Below are positions 1 to 7,185 of a stretch of DNA of 8,446 nt, one piece after another. The stretch lies in the NCBI GenBank assembly GCA_003641555.1, contig QNAT01000034.1, positions 1 through 8,446 of the forward strand, given 5' to 3'. The notes below the pieces were generated by a model that was not told where the DNA came from, searched no databases, and saw nothing but the letters and a program-made list of their open reading frames with translations. Each line of letters starts with the position of its first letter. Positions within the stretch are counted from its first letter, which is position 1. Source of the stretch: Thermotoga sp. (GTDB taxonomy: Bacteria; Thermotogota; Thermotogae; B3-G13). The position numbers and the translations under genes were made by a program.

Positions 1-148
1 GATGAGACTCAGAAATAAGAGCCTCGCTTTGCATTTCTCTAATCCATTCCTCCTTTAATTTTGCCGCCTCTAAAAATCCTCTTGCTCTTTCTATTTCAAG
101 AAGAGCATTATTTATACTATGAGTGATTGTAAATCTTGGTTTGAACAT
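1..148 (-). CDS. Fic family protein, N-terminal fragment (cut by window edge)
   Basis: Only the first 49 residues are inside the window, beginning MFKPRFTITHSINNAL and ending at a Ser-His. This opening, with the later LEIERARGFLEAAKL stretch and a Trp-Ile-x-Glu-Met segment, matches from memory the helical N-terminal region (Fic_N type) of many Fic/DOC proteins. In those proteins the text continues into a His/Thr-rich segment ending in an inhibitory-type Glu-Gly, but that part and the catalytic HPFxxGNGR motif lie beyond the edge. Fic enzymes typically transfer AMP from ATP to a hydroxyl of a target protein. The ATG shares its A with the stop of the methyltransferase gene (TAATG), and a strong ribosome site (GGAGGGG at 157-163) sits 8 bases upstream, so the start is secure. 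It is the third gene of a coupled operon. A toxin or regulatory role is inferred; the family call rests on a short fragment. Confidence 0.8.
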   Translation of the reverse strand, partial: MFKPRFTITHSINNALLEIERARGFLEAAKLKEEWIREMQSEALISESH

Positions 149-3100
149 TACTTCTGCCCCTCCACAATCTTTATCTCTTCATCTGTCAAGCCATAAAGTT
201 TATAGACCATCTGATCAATCTGGCGTTCGAGTTCTTTTACACTTCTGTTATCTTTGCTGTCTCCCTCTGGATCGTAATCTTCTTTTTGAGTGATAGAAAG
301 AATTTTATCAACAAGTTCAATAAATGGTTTTTGGTCTGATTCAGAGATTTTTGGGATGGGAAGTTGTTCTAAAAATGCTTTTTTATATCTATACCCATTT
401 TCTCCAAGGCCGCCACCTGCATAAAATTGCTTGAAGAAAAATGTTGCGGGTTTTGAGTTTAATATTGCAATTAAATATCTTAAGCTTTTCCCTGTCATTA
501 AGAAAGTTGTTGCTTCGCAATAGAAATTTTTATTATCAAAAGCAAAACTTGGTTCTCTAACTATTTCCTGCCACACAATCTTTTCTTTTTCAAATTCAGG
601 GTAGTAAGTTGCAGCACACCTTTGCAAAGCATACCATTCATAGCGTATCCCTGTTTCAGTTTTATTTCTATTAGATAACTGCTCTTTATATTGTAATAAA
701 TGATTGTAGATAGCAGGATACTGTCCCTTAAACTTATATTCTGCTTTTTGTGAAGCTCCCTGAATAGAATTATCTTTGTTCAACGGGAAATGCCAGGGAA
801 TAAAGATCACCCACAACCCTGCCCATTTATAATAATATCTTCCAATATCTCTGCCTCTTAATATTGGTTTTAATATTTCAGCACTTTTGGGGTCTTCTTC
901 GCATAATCTTTCTTTTGTTTTTGTATCAATGATAAATGCTTTGTTAAAACCTGTTTTAATTCCAAAGTAAATTTTCACATCCCATTCTTTTAATGGCTTT
1001 CCGATGCTTTCTATCTTTTCTTTCAGTTTCAATATTCTTTCGCCTGCCAATGTCCAGCATTTATTGTCAAGTTTTTCCTGATAAATCGTATTTTGACTCT
1101 TCTCAATATAATCAACTATATCACCATCGATCTTGCTTTGCACATTTGCATATTTTACCCGATGCTCTTTATCTGCTTTTATTTTCTGAATCAAGATTAT
1201 ATTCGTATCCACTGTTGCCTCAAATACAGGGTATCCACCAAAATCTATGAGGTTTATAACTTTCGTGTTCCCTTTAAAGAATTCGCGTAATTTTTCTCCA
1301 TATCTCGCTCGCATCCATTTGTTGCTTGAAATAAAGCATAGATGTCCCTTTTCTTTTAAAATATCGTATGCCTTTTCATAAAAATATGTGTAAAGGTCAG
1401 AAGTTGAATTGAAAACTTTATATCTTGCTTTTTGAAGGAATGGTTTGTATTCTTTTATCTTTTCCTGCCTTACATACGGTGGATTTGCGATCACCACGTC
1501 AAAGCCACCTTTTTCTTTTTCATGGAATACTTCAGAAAAATGAACACGAAAATCAAAATTAACTTCTTCCATCTCCTTGAAAAACTTCTTTGCTTGTTCA
1601 ACTAACTCATCAAAAAGTGCATTGATCTTGTTTCTGATTTTAACCTTTTCAGACAGGTTTGTTTTATTAGTGTATTTTTCTTTAAGTTGCTCAATTTCTT
1701 CATTTATTGTAAAATTCCTTAAAACGTTGGAGGGAAAACCTAAAAGGGAATTCCCAAATACGATCTTGTAATCCAGATTCGGCAGTGGTTTTATCTTCGT
1801 TACGTCTTCCTCATCCACGATGAGCGAGAGCCATAGGCGGAGTTTTGCAACTTCACAGGCCCCGGCATCTACATCCACACCATAGAGGGAATTCTCTATA
1901 CATTCCCATTTGAAGTTGTAAGAAGTCCTTTCCGGCTCTTTTACGTGTACTGAGAGTACGTTCCTCGCATTCACGATCTCATGCATCATACCCACAAGGA
2001 ACGCTCCACTGCCAACTGCAGGGTCACAAACCTTGATATCTCTTAGTTTTTCGTCAATGAGTTTTGCATTTTCTCTTATACTCTCAGGAAGTTTAGGGCC
2101 ATAGTTTGAAGTTTTCTGTTTACCTTCTTTAATTCGTTGCTCTTTAATTAACGCTGTGCCATCATTTTCGATGTATTGTTCGCCGTGCTTGATGAAGTCT
2201 TCGATATCCTCTCGAGTGCACTTTCCCTCGAGCTCCGTCGATAAGTAGTTGATTAAACTCTCCTGGCACATGTAGTGAACGATCTCGCGAGGTGTATAGT
2301 AAACACCGAATTTCTTATTGAATTTCCTTTCTTCTAAACTCTTCTTGCTTTTCAAAGCCTTTTTGTATTCACCAAAATTATCGGGTCTTATGGCGTTGAA
2401 TTTCTCATACAATTTACCCAAAAGTTCGGGGTCTATTGCCACCTCTTTTTCAAGTGGTTCATCTTCTTTCACGGTGAAATTAAAACGATCGAATACGTCG
2501 AGAATACCGTCTCCAATATCCCCTTCAGGAGTTCTATGACTATTGGAAAAAAGGTCATCTGGAAGGAGTATGTCCGTATGTACCCAATCGTATTCACCGA
2601 TCGGTTCGAAAAGTCCACCATTTAAGAATGGAATCTTGCAGTTGAACCTGCTGTAAAAATCCTCATCGCGCTGATGAGCAAGTGCTTCATAAAACAAGGG
2701 CTCCAGGATGTCGTTGAAGAAATTCTCATAGTTACCATATTTTTTATCGAACAGCCTTCTCAAAAAATTCTTCGGTCCTGTACCCCATCTGTCATCTCTA
2801 TCTACCCCAAACCACCCTTTTTTCTGCAGGAAATACAGGAATACGATCTGCTCTAAGAGTTTCTTGGCGAAGTCAACGGTATTGATATTCCTGGATTCGA
2901 AGTTACTCTTTACCTTTTCGTCGCTCTCAACTATCTTGTCCAATTCGTTTACCGTGCGTATGAGAAGGTCACGATATCCTTCAAAAAATTCCTTTGTAAC
3001 AGACTCAATGTTGAATGCTTCTTCTAACTGTACAAGTGTAGGGTTATGCTCATCATCCTCAAGGATATGTATGAGTCTGCTTTGTGCTGTATGACTTGCT

Positions 3101-3570
3101 TCATTTTTCCCAACAAGGAAAGACCATCTACGCGCTGGGGATTTCTTTTCTATTACCTCTCCATTCTCGATGATATAATCTACCTTCACAAGAGAGAATC
3201 GCCAATCTTCCTCATCCGGAGGGACGAAGGCAACTAATGCCGCATTCTTCCTACTCGAAGATCCGTATTCTCCTTTCAGAAAGCCTGCAACGAAGTTACG
3301 CTGCCTGGAACGAGCACGTTCAATCGATGTTTGCTTCTTAAGATAGGTGATCAGGACATCGATGCGATTTTTGCCATCGTTGTATTTTCCAATTCGTTTA
3401 TATCTGCAGATGTGATCTTTGTAAGGATCGGGTATGTAGGCACCGAAGTAATCGAAATGGGTAGATTCCATGGTATTCAAGAGTTCACTTATGAATCGAT
3501 TGAATCTCTCTTCATTGAATTCATTTTCGAATGTTTTTCTGATCAGAGCCTTCGCTTGTGCTTCATCCAT
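148..3570 (-). CDS. Eco57I/COG1002-type adenine-N6 DNA methyltransferase with TaqI-like specificity domain
   Basis: About 1140 residues. It should methylate adenine in a specific DNA site using S-adenosylmethionine. Visible motifs, numbered from the ATG at 3570: FGVYYTP at 421-427 (motif X region), DPAVGSGAF at 516-524 (motif I, cofactor loop), NPPY at 696-699 (catalytic motif IV), GIKTGFNKAF at 870-879, ILRGRDI near 903-909 and LPIP at 1070-1073. The last three are hallmarks of the TaqI-like C-terminal specificity region. The N-terminal 200 residues hold a conserved-looking block (RIDVLITYLKK, then ERARSRQRNF at about 84-93) seen in large COG1002 proteins, but no clear PD-(D/E)xK nuclease. 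The start could instead be GTG at 3573; ATG at 3570 fits the ribosome site better. It overlaps the helicase gene by 8 bases and abuts fic. G+C falls sharply in its 3' half, from about 1740 onward. The family is secure; the target site is unknown. Confidence 0.93.
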   Translation of the reverse strand: MDEAQAKALIRKTFENEFNEERFNRFISELLNTMESTHFDYFGAYIPDPYKDHICRYKRIGKYNDGKNRIDVLITYLKKQTSIERARSRQRNFVAGFLKGEYGSSSRKNAALVAFVPPDEEDWRFSLVKVDYIIENGEVIEKKSPARRWSFLVGKNEASHTAQSRLIHILEDDEHNPTLVQLEEAFNIESVTKEFFEGYRDLLIRTVNELDKIVESDEKVKSNFESRNINTVDFAKKLLEQIVFLYFLQKKGWFGVDRDDRWGTGPKNFLRRLFDKKYGNYENFFNDILEPLFYEALAHQRDEDFYSRFNCKIPFLNGGLFEPIGEYDWVHTDILLPDDLFSNSHRTPEGDIGDGILDVFDRFNFTVKEDEPLEKEVAIDPELLGKLYEKFNAIRPDNFGEYKKALKSKKSLEERKFNKKFGVYYTPREIVHYMCQESLINYLSTELEGKCTREDIEDFIKHGEQYIENDGTALIKEQRIKEGKQKTSNYGPKLPESIRENAKLIDEKLRDIKVCDPAVGSGAFLVGMMHEIVNARNVLSVHVKEPERTSYNFKWECIENSLYGVDVDAGACEVAKLRLWLSLIVDEEDVTKIKPLPNLDYKIVFGNSLLGFPSNVLRNFTINEEIEQLKEKYTNKTNLSEKVKIRNKINALFDELVEQAKKFFKEMEEVNFDFRVHFSEVFHEKEKGGFDVVIANPPYVRQEKIKEYKPFLQKARYKVFNSTSDLYTYFYEKAYDILKEKGHLCFISSNKWMRARYGEKLREFFKGNTKVINLIDFGGYPVFEATVDTNIILIQKIKADKEHRVKYANVQSKIDGDIVDYIEKSQNTIYQEKLDNKCWTLAGERILKLKEKIESIGKPLKEWDVKIYFGIKTGFNKAFIIDTKTKERLCEEDPKSAEILKPILRGRDIGRYYYKWAGLWVIFIPWHFPLNKDNSIQGASQKAEYKFKGQYPAIYNHLLQYKEQLSNRNKTETGIRYEWYALQRCAATYYPEFEKEKIVWQEIVREPSFAFDNKNFYCEATTFLMTGKSLRYLIAILNSKPATFFFKQFYAGGGLGENGYRYKKAFLEQLPIPKISESDQKPFIELVDKILSITQKEDYDPEGDSKDNRSVKELERQIDQMVYKLYGLTDEEIKIVEGQK
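157..163 (-). promoter_or_regulatory. Ribosome binding site of the Fic gene
   Basis: GGAGGGG on the - strand, eight bases before the fic ATG and inside the last codons of the methyltransferase gene. It is the strongest ribosome site of this operon. It suggests that the Fic protein is made efficiently and not only by read-through from the upstream gene. Confidence 0.65.
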
Positions 3571-6500
3571 CACTGTCTCCTGCCAAATATACCGATAGTA
3601 TGACTTCTCTCTTTCCAGATCTCATCGCATAATTTTCCGAATAATGCTTTTCAAGCAGCCTTCGGGGAATGTTTTTGCTAACAATCGCGTAGACCTTGAG
3701 AGGATTGTCCAACTCTGGTTTTAAATCCTTCAACGCCTTCAGAGTCTTCATCAATCTCCGCTTCGGTATGGCACCGTCTTTGAGTCGCTCTTTGACTCTT
3801 TCAAGATTCGCTTCTTGCTCATCAGTTAATCGCTTCCCGTTTTTCAAGGTGGCTCTCAGGATATTCTCGAGTCTTGCCGAACTATCCCTGCCAGAACGTT
3901 TTTGAAAGGATTCATTATTCGTTGCGTTGAAAAATGCCCCTTTATTTCTTCTGAGAAGTGCATAGTAATCGTCAAGTGGGATCTTCTCGCACCTTTCTGT
4001 GACTGAACTCTCGAGGACCTTTGCGGCAGTGATGAAATCGAGTTCTTGCGTCTCCCCCATCGCATTCGTTATGAAGAATTTCTGGAGTTTACCCTTTCTG
4101 AAGTATGTGAGAAGGGAATTCGTTCGAATAGACCTTTTTGCAGAACGAGCCTTTTTGGGAAGGCGTTTTATCTTCTCGAAAAGTTGAGGATTTTTATCCC
4201 TGATATCCTTTATAACATTTAGATATTTCAATTCACTTTCCTCCTCCAGTTCTTCATCAAGTATCTTTGTGGAAAGAAGCCGATCGAAGAGTTCGTGATG
4301 GCCAATCGGTTCTCCCTCAGTTAATATGGAGGCATCACCGCCCAAAAGAGTTAGGAATGTTTCGATCTTAGAACGTGCTATCTTCGTGAGTTCTATCTCA
4401 TCATCCGATTGTTTGGTGGGAAAGAAGTTAAAGGTGTATATGGTATCGAAGTCGGTATCGATACGGTTGACCCTTCCAACTCTCTGCATCATGCGGGTTG
4501 GATTCCAGGGAATATCGTAGTTTACCACTACATTTGATCTGTGAAGATTAACGCCTTCGGAAAGGACCTCGGTGGATATGAGGATCTGATAATCGTTTCT
4601 TTTGTATCGTGCCCTCGCATCGAAGTTATCTATTACCTTGTTAGCGATCTCTTTAGAGGAACTGCCAGTATAACAGAGGGCTTTGTCTCCGACGTTTTCC
4701 GTAAGGTATTCAGCCGTTTCTTTCGATTCGGTGAAAATGATGACTTTATTTTTCCTCAGGATCTCGTTCTTCGAAAGATTCCTTTGCAATTCCTCGAGTT
4801 TTGGATCTCTCTTCACATCGTTCCACATATCTTTTATCCTCTTCAATATGGCGAGGTCGTTCTCCAGATCTCTTCTGAAATCTTCCCTGAATTCTTCTTT
4901 GCTATATTCTTTTGCCTTTTCTTCATCGAGAAGATGTTGTATCTCTTCGTCATTGTCACTCTCGATCAATTCGAAGATCTTGTTGATGTATTTCTTACTT
5001 ACGAAGACACGACCGTTATCAAAGGCCTTGAGAAATTGCTGGTAAGAATTGATGAATCTATCGATGGTTCGCTTGAAGGCATAGAAACTGCTCTCCAGGC
5101 GTTTCACAAGCAGCACCTTCATGAATCCCTCCATGTTTCTCTGGGATTGCTTCTCTAAGACCTTGATCTCTTGTTTGAGATAGAGTAGAGGTGTATAGCG
5201 GGCGTACTTGAATTCTTGCGTGATCGATCTCATCGTTTCCATGAAGATCCTATCTTCTCGCTCGTTGAGTTGATAGTAGATGGGATGCGGGGGTTTGACC
5301 TCTGGGAATTTTATCTTGTTCTTCTCGAGATCGCTTTTGTAGTATTTTCTTATCTCAGCCCTCGTCCTCCTTACCATAATGTATTTCAACACTTTTTCCC
5401 TGATCTCTTTTGCATTTTCTTTAGTGATTTTGATATATTCATCGTAATTTCCCTTGCGATCGACTTCATTCAATCTTTTATTAAGCCGTTTGAAGAATCC
5501 TTCGAGACCTGGCAAGCCTGGTATGGTGCTTTTCCTCGGATTTTGGAAGAGTTTAATTTGATTCAAGAGGTCATTGGGGGAATTGTTATACGGAGTGGCA
5601 GTTACAAGAATAACCCGTTTTCCTCGGCATATCTGTGCGAGTTTATCATAACCGATTGTTGTCTCCGACCTGAAACGGTGTGATTCATCGATAATTACAT
5701 TATCGTATTCTCTCTCTTCCATCTTCTTCAAGGCTTCATCTAATTTACCAATGGATACACAATCGGCAGGGATGTTAAAATCGGAAAAGACATTCCTCCA
5801 GGACCCAGGATTCTCTTCTCTAAGCAAGGCAGGAGGAGCTATAACGAGTGTTCTCCCTTCGATCTCTTTTGCCAATATTGCCGATATATATGTTTTTCCT
5901 AATCCCACAACGTCGGATATGAATACACCACCGTACTCTTCGAGAATTTCCTTCGCATTCAGCACCGCTTGTTTCTGATATTCGAGTTTTTTGAAATCCT
6001 GTGGTAGATACCTCATGGAGAATTCGTATGGAGGCTTCAACTCGTCTCTGAAGTATTCGTACAGGAATTTGAGATACAGTTCGTATGGAGTTATATCCTC
6101 TTTCAACCATGTCTTCGTCTGAATAGTCTGTACGTATTTCTCACTTACGTTTACTGAATCTTTCCACAACTCTTCGAACTTCTGTCTGGCAAATTCGTAA
6201 TCTGCAGGATTTTTCAACTCGACGTTGAATTCGAGATTTTCCTTGAGTCCCGATCGGGTGAGATTACTCGAGCCAGTTATGATTCTGCCTACGTCTATGT
6301 AGCCCTGCGGAAATGTGAAGATGTATAGTTTTGCATGTATATCAGATGGATACGCCCTTATCTCCAATTTCTTATTCTTTATCCACTCGATGAATTTTTT
6401 AACGCCGAGTTCAACGTCTTTATCATCTTCGGATTCTTCCATCTCTTCTTTAACTTCTTCCTCTACAATCTGTTTCGTCTCGTAAGATGTATGCCAATTC

Positions 6501-6745
6501 TTTTGTTTGCTCTCTTCTACTGATTCATAGCCTTTTCTGCCCATGCCAATACCAACGAGTATACGAATCCTATCTGCCTTTTCTAATGCGGGATATATCA
6601 AACGAAAGCCACTCAGGTAAAAATATCCGATCAAACAATCGAAAAACCTTGATTCTTTGCACAGCACATTAAATCTGTCTTTAAGGATACGCCCGGGTTC
6701 GTTAGTTATAAACGTTAAATCGGTAACAGTTTTTCTTTCCATCAT
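3563..6745 (-). CDS. PLD/HKD-nuclease domain fused to SNF2-like helicase
   Basis: 1060 residues. The N-terminal 200 or so residues form a phospholipase-D-like domain with one HxK motif (His137, Lys139), GSSNLT at 158-163 and a following NLEFNVE. The helicase core follows: YQKQAV at 256-261, Walker A DVVGLGKT at 278-285, Walker B as DESH at 353-356, TATP at 382-385, a roughly 280-residue charged helical insert, VIIFTES at 668-674, STEVLSEGVNL at 724-734 and the arginine-finger motif QRVGRVNR at 754-761. All ATPase motifs look intact. Residues 770-1060 match nothing I recognise and are basic and helical. The expected role is ATP-driven movement on DNA, with the HKD domain as nuclease; HKD enzymes cut without metal and usually pair two motifs by dimerising. 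It is first in the operon, with GAGG at 6754-6757 eight bases before the ATG; a second ATG follows directly. Its pairing with a methyltransferase points to restriction. Activity is inferred. Confidence 0.92.
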   Translation of the reverse strand: MMERKTVTDLTFITNEPGRILKDRFNVLCKESRFFDCLIGYFYLSGFRLIYPALEKADRIRILVGIGMGRKGYESVEESKQKNWHTSYETKQIVEEEVKEEMEESEDDKDVELGVKKFIEWIKNKKLEIRAYPSDIHAKLYIFTFPQGYIDVGRIITGSSNLTRSGLKENLEFNVELKNPADYEFARQKFEELWKDSVNVSEKYVQTIQTKTWLKEDITPYELYLKFLYEYFRDELKPPYEFSMRYLPQDFKKLEYQKQAVLNAKEILEEYGGVFISDVVGLGKTYISAILAKEIEGRTLVIAPPALLREENPGSWRNVFSDFNIPADCVSIGKLDEALKKMEEREYDNVIIDESHRFRSETTIGYDKLAQICRGKRVILVTATPYNNSPNDLLNQIKLFQNPRKSTIPGLPGLEGFFKRLNKRLNEVDRKGNYDEYIKITKENAKEIREKVLKYIMVRRTRAEIRKYYKSDLEKNKIKFPEVKPPHPIYYQLNEREDRIFMETMRSITQEFKYARYTPLLYLKQEIKVLEKQSQRNMEGFMKVLLVKRLESSFYAFKRTIDRFINSYQQFLKAFDNGRVFVSKKYINKIFELIESDNDEEIQHLLDEEKAKEYSKEEFREDFRRDLENDLAILKRIKDMWNDVKRDPKLEELQRNLSKNEILRKNKVIIFTESKETAEYLTENVGDKALCYTGSSSKEIANKVIDNFDARARYKRNDYQILISTEVLSEGVNLHRSNVVVNYDIPWNPTRMMQRVGRVNRIDTDFDTIYTFNFFPTKQSDDEIELTKIARSKIETFLTLLGGDASILTEGEPIGHHELFDRLLSTKILDEELEEESELKYLNVIKDIRDKNPQLFEKIKRLPKKARSAKRSIRTNSLLTYFRKGKLQKFFITNAMGETQELDFITAAKVLESSVTERCEKIPLDDYYALLRRNKGAFFNATNNESFQKRSGRDSSARLENILRATLKNGKRLTDEQEANLERVKERLKDGAIPKRRLMKTLKALKDLKPELDNPLKVYAIVSKNIPRRLLEKHYSENYAMRSGKREVILSVYLAGDSDG
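3577..3581 (-). promoter_or_regulatory. Ribosome binding site that decides the methyltransferase start
   Basis: On the - strand AGGAG lies six bases before ATG (3570) but only three before the in-frame GTG (3573). The spacing favours the ATG, giving ATGGATGA, in which the new start precedes the helicase stop codon by two bases. Ribosomes finishing the helicase can therefore re-initiate. Confidence 0.7.
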
Positions 6746-6901: not shown

Positions 6902-7185
6902 GTACGGGGTCACAGAAAGGAGTATGTAATGCACTTTTTATAAAAACGGCATCTTGTTCGGTGGATCAGGATTGGGTTCGGAGTCTTTTCTCATTCACAT
7001 AAATACAGGAAAAAACTTGAGAATAACGAATTTCCTTTCTGAAAATTGTCCAAATTATATATCCCAAAATCCCGGTTAGAAACCAAAAAGAGGGTAAACC
7101 CATAAAATTTGTCCGTTTTTTTGAGTAGTGTAAAATAAAATTGATCCACAAAAGACGAAATATCCTATGTGGAACCGTAAGACTC

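Follow-up and report, generated by a model that had tools for sequence, protein, structure and literature searches.

Gene arrangement and domain content

The stretch of DNA analysed here (the window) comprises 8,446 nucleotides of contig QNAT01000034.1 (C34) in a 72%-complete Thermotoga sp. genome (assembly GCA_003641555.1). The subject of this work is a pair of genes in it, encoding a nuclease-helicase and a methyltransferase, that are predicted to form a restriction-modification system. The pair and a third open reading frame (ORF) all lie on the minus strand, in the order helicase, methyltransferase and the start of a Fic-family gene (Table 1). Because the window opens at base 1 of its contig, the Fic gene is readable as 49 codons only and the leftward sequence is unreadable. 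The helicase and methyltransferase genes overlap by 8 bases when the ATG at 3570 is used as the methyltransferase start. This start appears more plausible than the GTG at 3573, because 32 of the 33 methylases aligned have Met at the position that it encodes. The ATG of the third gene at 148 overlaps the methyltransferase stop by 1 base, and the starts of the second and third genes are preceded by purine-rich runs resembling ribosome-binding sites. The ORFs, their common direction and the two overlaps agree with a preliminary description of the locus.

Table 1 Features of the window with their positions and strands.
Feature	Position	Strand	Description
HKD (phospholipase D (PLD)-type) nuclease-SNF2 helicase	3563-6745	-	1060 aa; predicted restriction subunit (nuclease and motor)
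N6-adenine methyltransferase with TaqI-like specificity domain	148-3573	-	1141 aa (GTG at 3573) or 1140 aa (ATG at 3570); predicted modification and target recognition subunit
Methyltransferase N-terminal region of ~190 aa	3004-3570	-	Extra domain at the place of the MmeI nuclease; expected catalytic lysine not conserved
Fic-family gene, first 49 codons	2-148	-	Cut by the contig end
Dispersed sequence	7049-7122		Intergenic
Second short repeat	7126-7166		Upstream of yceD

The Pfam domains of the helicase are PLDc_2 (residues 107-194), ResIII (254-386), SNF2 (335-470) and Helicase_C (649-762). Residue conservation was counted in helicase ORFs longer than 900 aa and uncut at the 5' end (31 near and 7 distant, the window included). 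The nuclease residues H137, K139, S159-N161 (GSSN) and E172 are invariant in all 38, as are the superfamily 2 (SF2) residues K284 of Walker A, D353-E354-H356, Q754, R755, G757, R758 and R761. The best PADLOC model for the protein is the candidate C3a139 'HKD+Snf2' with 170.7 bits, a far weaker match than that of the methyltransferase; the name C3a139 was not found in the literature searched. In NCBIfam, the proteins of the window stay well below the cut-offs for DrmD, PglX, DpdE and 'phospholipase D-like domain-containing anti-phage protein'.

The methyltransferase contains the Eco57I and TaqI_C domains, and its methylase motif residues and NPPY are kept in 39 of 39 proteins (33 near and 6 distant ORFs of at least 1000 aa, uncut at the 5' end, the window included). 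Its best PADLOC model is REase_MTase_IIG (PDLC03596, 1279.7 bits). The nearest solved folds are CamA and M.BseCI for residues 603-1129, and BrxX and MmeI for residues ~190-1140. The alignment with MmeI (5hr4) starts at residue 164 of MmeI and residue 195 of the methyltransferase model, and the domain preceding this point is predicted to be built in the order helix, strands, helix, strands. Within the N-terminal domain, D66 and D72 are conserved in 30 and 29 of the 33 aligned methylases, respectively, and position 74 is Leu in 32. No conserved E/Q-x-K was found in these 33 sequences, and the nuclease lysine expected there for a type IIG enzyme is not conserved. For these two proteins, the domains found (PLDc_2, SNF2, Eco57I and TaqI_C) confirm the identities given in the preliminary description; for the Fic gene, the evidence is a match of the 49-codon fragment given below. 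For two methylase homologs (P0034 and P0065), the protein record also contains a Y1 transposase domain (PF01797).

Conservation of the pair and variation of the specificity region

The near loci number 37 including the window, leaving 36 relatives from bacteria, archaea and viral contigs with helicases 41-61% identical to that of the window (tblastn). Both genes are present in 34 of the 36, and in the other two (L042 and L074) the contig ends where the methylase would lie. All 34 have the genes on the same strand in the order helicase to methylase. In 27 of them the spacing lies between -17 and +15 bp, and 6 of the 7 longer gaps hold an extra ORF. When the search was made from the methylase side, the helicase adjoined in five of five loci, whose genomes are among the 36. 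The recurrence of the pair with a shared orientation and gene order (34/34) argues that the linkage is more than chance. Among eight distant loci from the window's own phylum (31-35% identical), seven carry the pair and the eighth is a 4.7-kb contig; the methylase precedes the helicase in L038 and L040.

A helicase search of 103 genomes of the window's phylum gave 14 matches at 1e-60, with the own genome and weaker relatives included. Five further phylum searches were made, each including the genome on which it was centred. They gave 12 matches at 1e-180 in 395 genomes of the phylum of G104 (L011, labelled Bacteroidales), 3 in 292 genomes of the phylum of a Thermoplasmata genome, 1 in 298 genomes of the phylum of a Nitratiruptor genome (the centre genome itself), 2 in 30 genomes of the phylum of G105 and 11 in 286 genomes, which are small, of the phylum of G107.

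Two IMG/VR viral contigs carry the pair (L028 and L029). In L096 it adjoins a ParB/DNA-methylase gene, and L094 and L095 resemble this locus by eye; a neighbouring 507-aa protein in L096 looks terminase-like by eye but has no Pfam match. The pair is possibly prophage cargo in the viral contigs and in L094-L096. A small ORF separates the helicase and methylase genes in L009, L067 and L100. In L100 it encodes an NYN-domain protein (64 bits); the ORFs of L009 and L067 look alike in their first residues.

The specificity part of the methylase diverges much more quickly than the remainder: 125 pairs of proteins that are 60-70% identical in residues 1-611 average 28.6% after residue 680 (range 17-63%). 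In a Prevotella nigrescens relative (L109; 5800-13473), the NPPY codons and their counterparts in an opposite-strand copy lie within a 47-bp inverted repeat (96% matched), near a gene annotated as an Mpi-family DNA invertase. In the near relative L099 (8370-10152), a 70-bp inverted repeat (83%) joins the specificity region and its opposite-strand copy, beside a serine-recombinase-like ORF. Two Lactococcus plasmids (L106, 4365-9170; L107, 4365-9047) also contain an inverted methylase/specificity copy and an annotated Mpi-family DNA invertase; the inverted repeat of L107 was seen by blastn alone, and the repeat listing shows none. The loci examined in this search comprised 2 of 4 Lactococcus plasmids and 4 of 16 matches overall, and the HKD motif is present in the helicases of L106, L108 and L109. 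The inverted repeats, opposite-strand copies and recombinase genes support a replaceable specificity module and suggest that the specificity part is invertible in L099 and in the Prevotella and Lactococcus plasmids, which would switch the methylation specificity. Such a repeat was found in L099 only, both in the repeat listing of eight near loci and, touching the methylase, in a blastn scan of 37 near and 8 distant loci including the window. The window itself has no such inverted repeat or recombinase.

The position after the methyltransferase gene

In addition to the two loci without a methylase, L009, L075 and L077 have no room after it, leaving 31 relatives in which the following position could be inspected. 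A same-strand ORF overlaps the methylase stop or lies within 10 bp of it in 16 of the 31, and one equally close precedes the helicase in 3 of 32. The ORF calls were mechanical. The genes in this position include AAA_13/PDC-S06 in L032 (PADLOC, 835 bits), an SMC/ABC-type gene in L069 (weak PADLOC match, 47 bits), shorter ORFs that begin like it in L071 and L072, DUF3800 in L065, a UvrD-like gene in L091 (GajB-like, 80 bits), SIR2 in L094 (weak PADLOC match, 27 bits) and a QatA/PifA-like KAP gene in L100 (60 bits). Further ORFs there belong to no recognised family. A Dsr1-like gene (412 bits) follows the methylase of L079 after a 119-bp gap, and in the distant locus L041 a SIR2 gene overlaps the methylase by 4 bp and is abutted by a TIR gene. 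We read this position as a changeable accessory one, comparable to that of the 'auxiliary and backup effectors' that PMC12839542 describes next to BREX and BREX-related systems.

In the window, this position would be occupied by the Fic gene, a single case. No model in Pfam, PADLOC or NCBIfam matches the 49-codon fragment, and any catalytic motif would lie beyond the contig end. Over 48 residues, the fragment shares 58% identity (E 7e-14) with the N terminus of a 349-aa Thermoplasmata protein. This protein contains a Fic domain (PF02661, 74 bits) and matches SoFic in PADLOC (216 bits) and in NCBIfam (82 bits versus a cut-off of 550). The third gene is assigned to the Fic family only through this relative. 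Abortive infection by AMPylation is reported for Sofic (PMC12249575), and by analogy the Fic product is probably an abortive-infection enzyme forming a separate second line of defence. A motif pattern applied to ORFs of at least 80 aa detected no Fic gene beside the pair in the 31 relatives; it would overlook degenerate Fic genes and those truncated where a contig stops, a risk in L096, where 481 bp are left. In L066, a Fic-domain protein is encoded ~1.6 kb upstream of the helicase; two ORFs separate them, and it was counted as non-adjacent.

A probable split restriction-modification system and its alternatives

Taken as a whole, the locus is likely to encode an ATP-dependent restriction-modification system that resembles a type ISP enzyme in split form, with an HKD nuclease and an accessory gene that can change, as judged from sequence comparison and predicted structures. 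The preliminary description had already named a methyltransferase with its own specificity region plus a nuclease-helicase as the restriction core and had compared it to a type ISP enzyme divided between two genes, with HKD in place of the usual nuclease. Both points are supported, the former as a prediction. In the proposed mechanism, the C-terminal TaqI-like domain of the methyltransferase would recognise a short site, in which the enzyme would methylate adenine, thereby marking the host DNA. At an unmarked site, the methyltransferase would load the helicase or activate it; the SNF2 motor would then move along the DNA until two complexes meet, join their HKD domains and cut. The N-terminal domain of the methyltransferase may serve for docking and not as a second nuclease, and the Fic product would act as a separate, probably abortive, second line through protein AMPylation. 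SauUSI, a PLD-family nuclease with an SF2 motor, is described as translocating in an ATP-driven manner and shredding DNA as a dimer (PMC7913695), and CglI illustrates that nuclease and helicase can be separate subunits (PMC5737866).

Several points weigh against this interpretation. No report of activity was found for any close relative. The acidic residue that follows the HKD lysine in SauUSI (E126) is replaced in the near family by Thr, Arg, Ser or Gly, and the confidence of the helicase model is moderate (predicted local distance difference test score 70, predicted template modelling score 0.45). In the N-terminal domain of the methylase, D66 and D72 are mostly kept and position 80 is Lys or Arg in 23 of 33 proteins, so a displaced nuclease lysine may be present. 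A coupled third gene is absent from 15 of the 31 relatives, and L069, L071 and L072 share one gene as judged from the first residues, so the 16 coupled ORFs are not independent. Three of nine scanned accessory proteins (L092, L095 and L097) match no PADLOC model; for these reasons the position may partly reflect ordinary defence-island traffic. The Fic arm depends on a single truncated gene.

The strong type IIG match of the methyltransferase, the location of its N-terminal domain at the place of the MmeI nuclease with D66 and D72 mostly kept, and the alignment of the HKD stretch with SauUSI (7CLG) would also be explained by a stand-alone type IIG enzyme merely adjacent to a separate, SauUSI-like type IV enzyme. 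We regard this as unlikely, since the two genes share one strand in 34 of 34 relatives, mostly abutting, and adjoin in all five loci found from the methylase side; the lack of an E/Q-x-K and the Leu at position 74 also speak against a type IIG nuclease. A reduced BREX-related locus (DUF499/Hma, Type-2 BREX-related), from which the DUF499 ATPase and DUF3780 have disappeared, would have the same two remaining parts, an HKD and Swi2/Snf2 helicase and an N6 methylase (PMC12839542). Residues 190-1140 of the methylase align with BrxX, and RapA, to which that paper likens BREX helicases, tops the Foldseek list for the helicase model but not the VIA-align list. However, DUF499 and DUF3780 were matched by none of 39 scanned flanking proteins of relatives (32 near and 7 distant), and the two-gene form is conserved across very distant hosts and is therefore not a decayed copy in one genome. 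Such an origin is accordingly considered improbable.

The preliminary description had treated the three genes as one system. The 1-base overlap with the methylase gene is what a true three-gene system requiring Fic would show, but the Fic fragment matches the window's own genome alone among the 103 genomes of its phylum, and the Thermoplasmata genome that has both the Fic relative and the pair carries them on different contigs. With no adjacent Fic gene detected by motif in the 31 relatives, an outcome that the preliminary description had itself listed as refuting its proposal, such a system is very improbable, and Fic was rejected as a core part on the basis of these neighbourhoods. The suggestion of a second, protein-modifying arm is tenable in another form, in that a different coupled ORF, in several cases defence-related, is found in 16 of the 31; none of these ORFs is a Fic gene.

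Compared with named systems, the pair would resemble in its working both type ISP enzymes and the restriction components of Type-2 BREX-related systems but, by the tests made, belongs to neither. LlaGI and LlaBIII are described as ATP-dependent motors with a gamma-type adenine methylase and a C-terminal specificity domain in one chain (PMC3874165). The likeness to them in motor, methylase and specificity domain is by motif (38/38 and 39/39) and TaqI_C domain only, whereas two genes are present here and in 34 of 34 relatives, and a PLDc_2/HKD nuclease on the helicase replaces the Mrr-type PD-QxK nuclease. Type-2 BREX-related systems are reported with auxiliary backup effectors alongside (PMC12839542), and they share the helicase and methylase types by domain and motif; the negative result for DUF499 and DUF3780 given above comes from Pfam scans of 39 proteins, a subset of those flanking the pair in relatives. 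Systems centred on a CxC ABC ATPase, including PbeABCD, contain HKD fused to an SF2 helicase and, in some loci, a DNA methylase (PMC10853773). Their core of CxC ABC ATPase and DndE has no counterpart in the window; in some relatives (L069) the methylase is followed by an SMC/ABC-type gene, not tested for CxC. In SauUSI, an SRA domain on the same polypeptide recognises methylated DNA, whereas the Pfam scan gave no SRA match in the helicase and a methylase adjoins in all 34 relatives with room. CglI resembles the pair in having separate subunits but splits the nuclease from the motor, which are fused here.

DISARM class 1 also combines an SNF2 helicase (DrmD) and an adenine methylase (DrmMI), which match the two proteins with 135 bits (NCBIfam) and 140 bits (PADLOC), respectively; the NCBIfam cut-off for DrmD is 610. 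The MZB/DUF1998 domain (DrmB-type) was not found in the window's 72%-complete genome. It was found in 3 of 29 pair-bearing genomes searched, the window's included, always on contigs other than that of the pair, and the same search gave matches in 8 of 14 control genomes. These results agree with the earlier view that the locus is not DISARM. In PADLOC, each protein best matches one model and the two models are separate, and the Sofic match concerns the 349-aa relative, of which the window holds the counterpart of 49 codons. The preliminary description gave no named system of the exact three-gene composition; no named two-gene system composed like the pair was found in the literature searched, which covered few subscription papers.

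A bolder reading, which we put forward tentatively and hold to be doubtful, is an unnamed widespread class comprising an HKD-SNF2 cutter, a methylase with cassette-swapped specificity and an exchangeable suicide gene, which would guard the pair and be triggered by its inactivation by a phage. In such a class the specificity would be inverted at the catalytic NPPY codons in some relatives, and the suicide genes would include Fic, SIR2, Dsr1, KAP, PDC-S06 and others. If the split-system interpretation is true, many proteins annotated as 'type IIG' across genomes would be modification subunits, each half of a two-gene system that depends on ATP, and predictions of sites, cofactors and cleavage for such proteins would change. 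The varying third gene makes it testable whether abortive-infection genes docked to restriction systems are guards that fire upon blocked restriction.

To the right of the pair, yceD lies on the opposite strand, followed by further opposite-strand genes that we take to be rpmF and plsX. The two repeats listed in Table 1 also lie to the right of the pair. For the first, a sequence of 30-65 bp, at least 18 other matches (78-96% identical) occur on other contigs of the same genome, a lower bound from 40 of 87 candidates scored, and it reads as a dispersed repeat or small mobile element. The second has three other copies in the same genome (85-94%).

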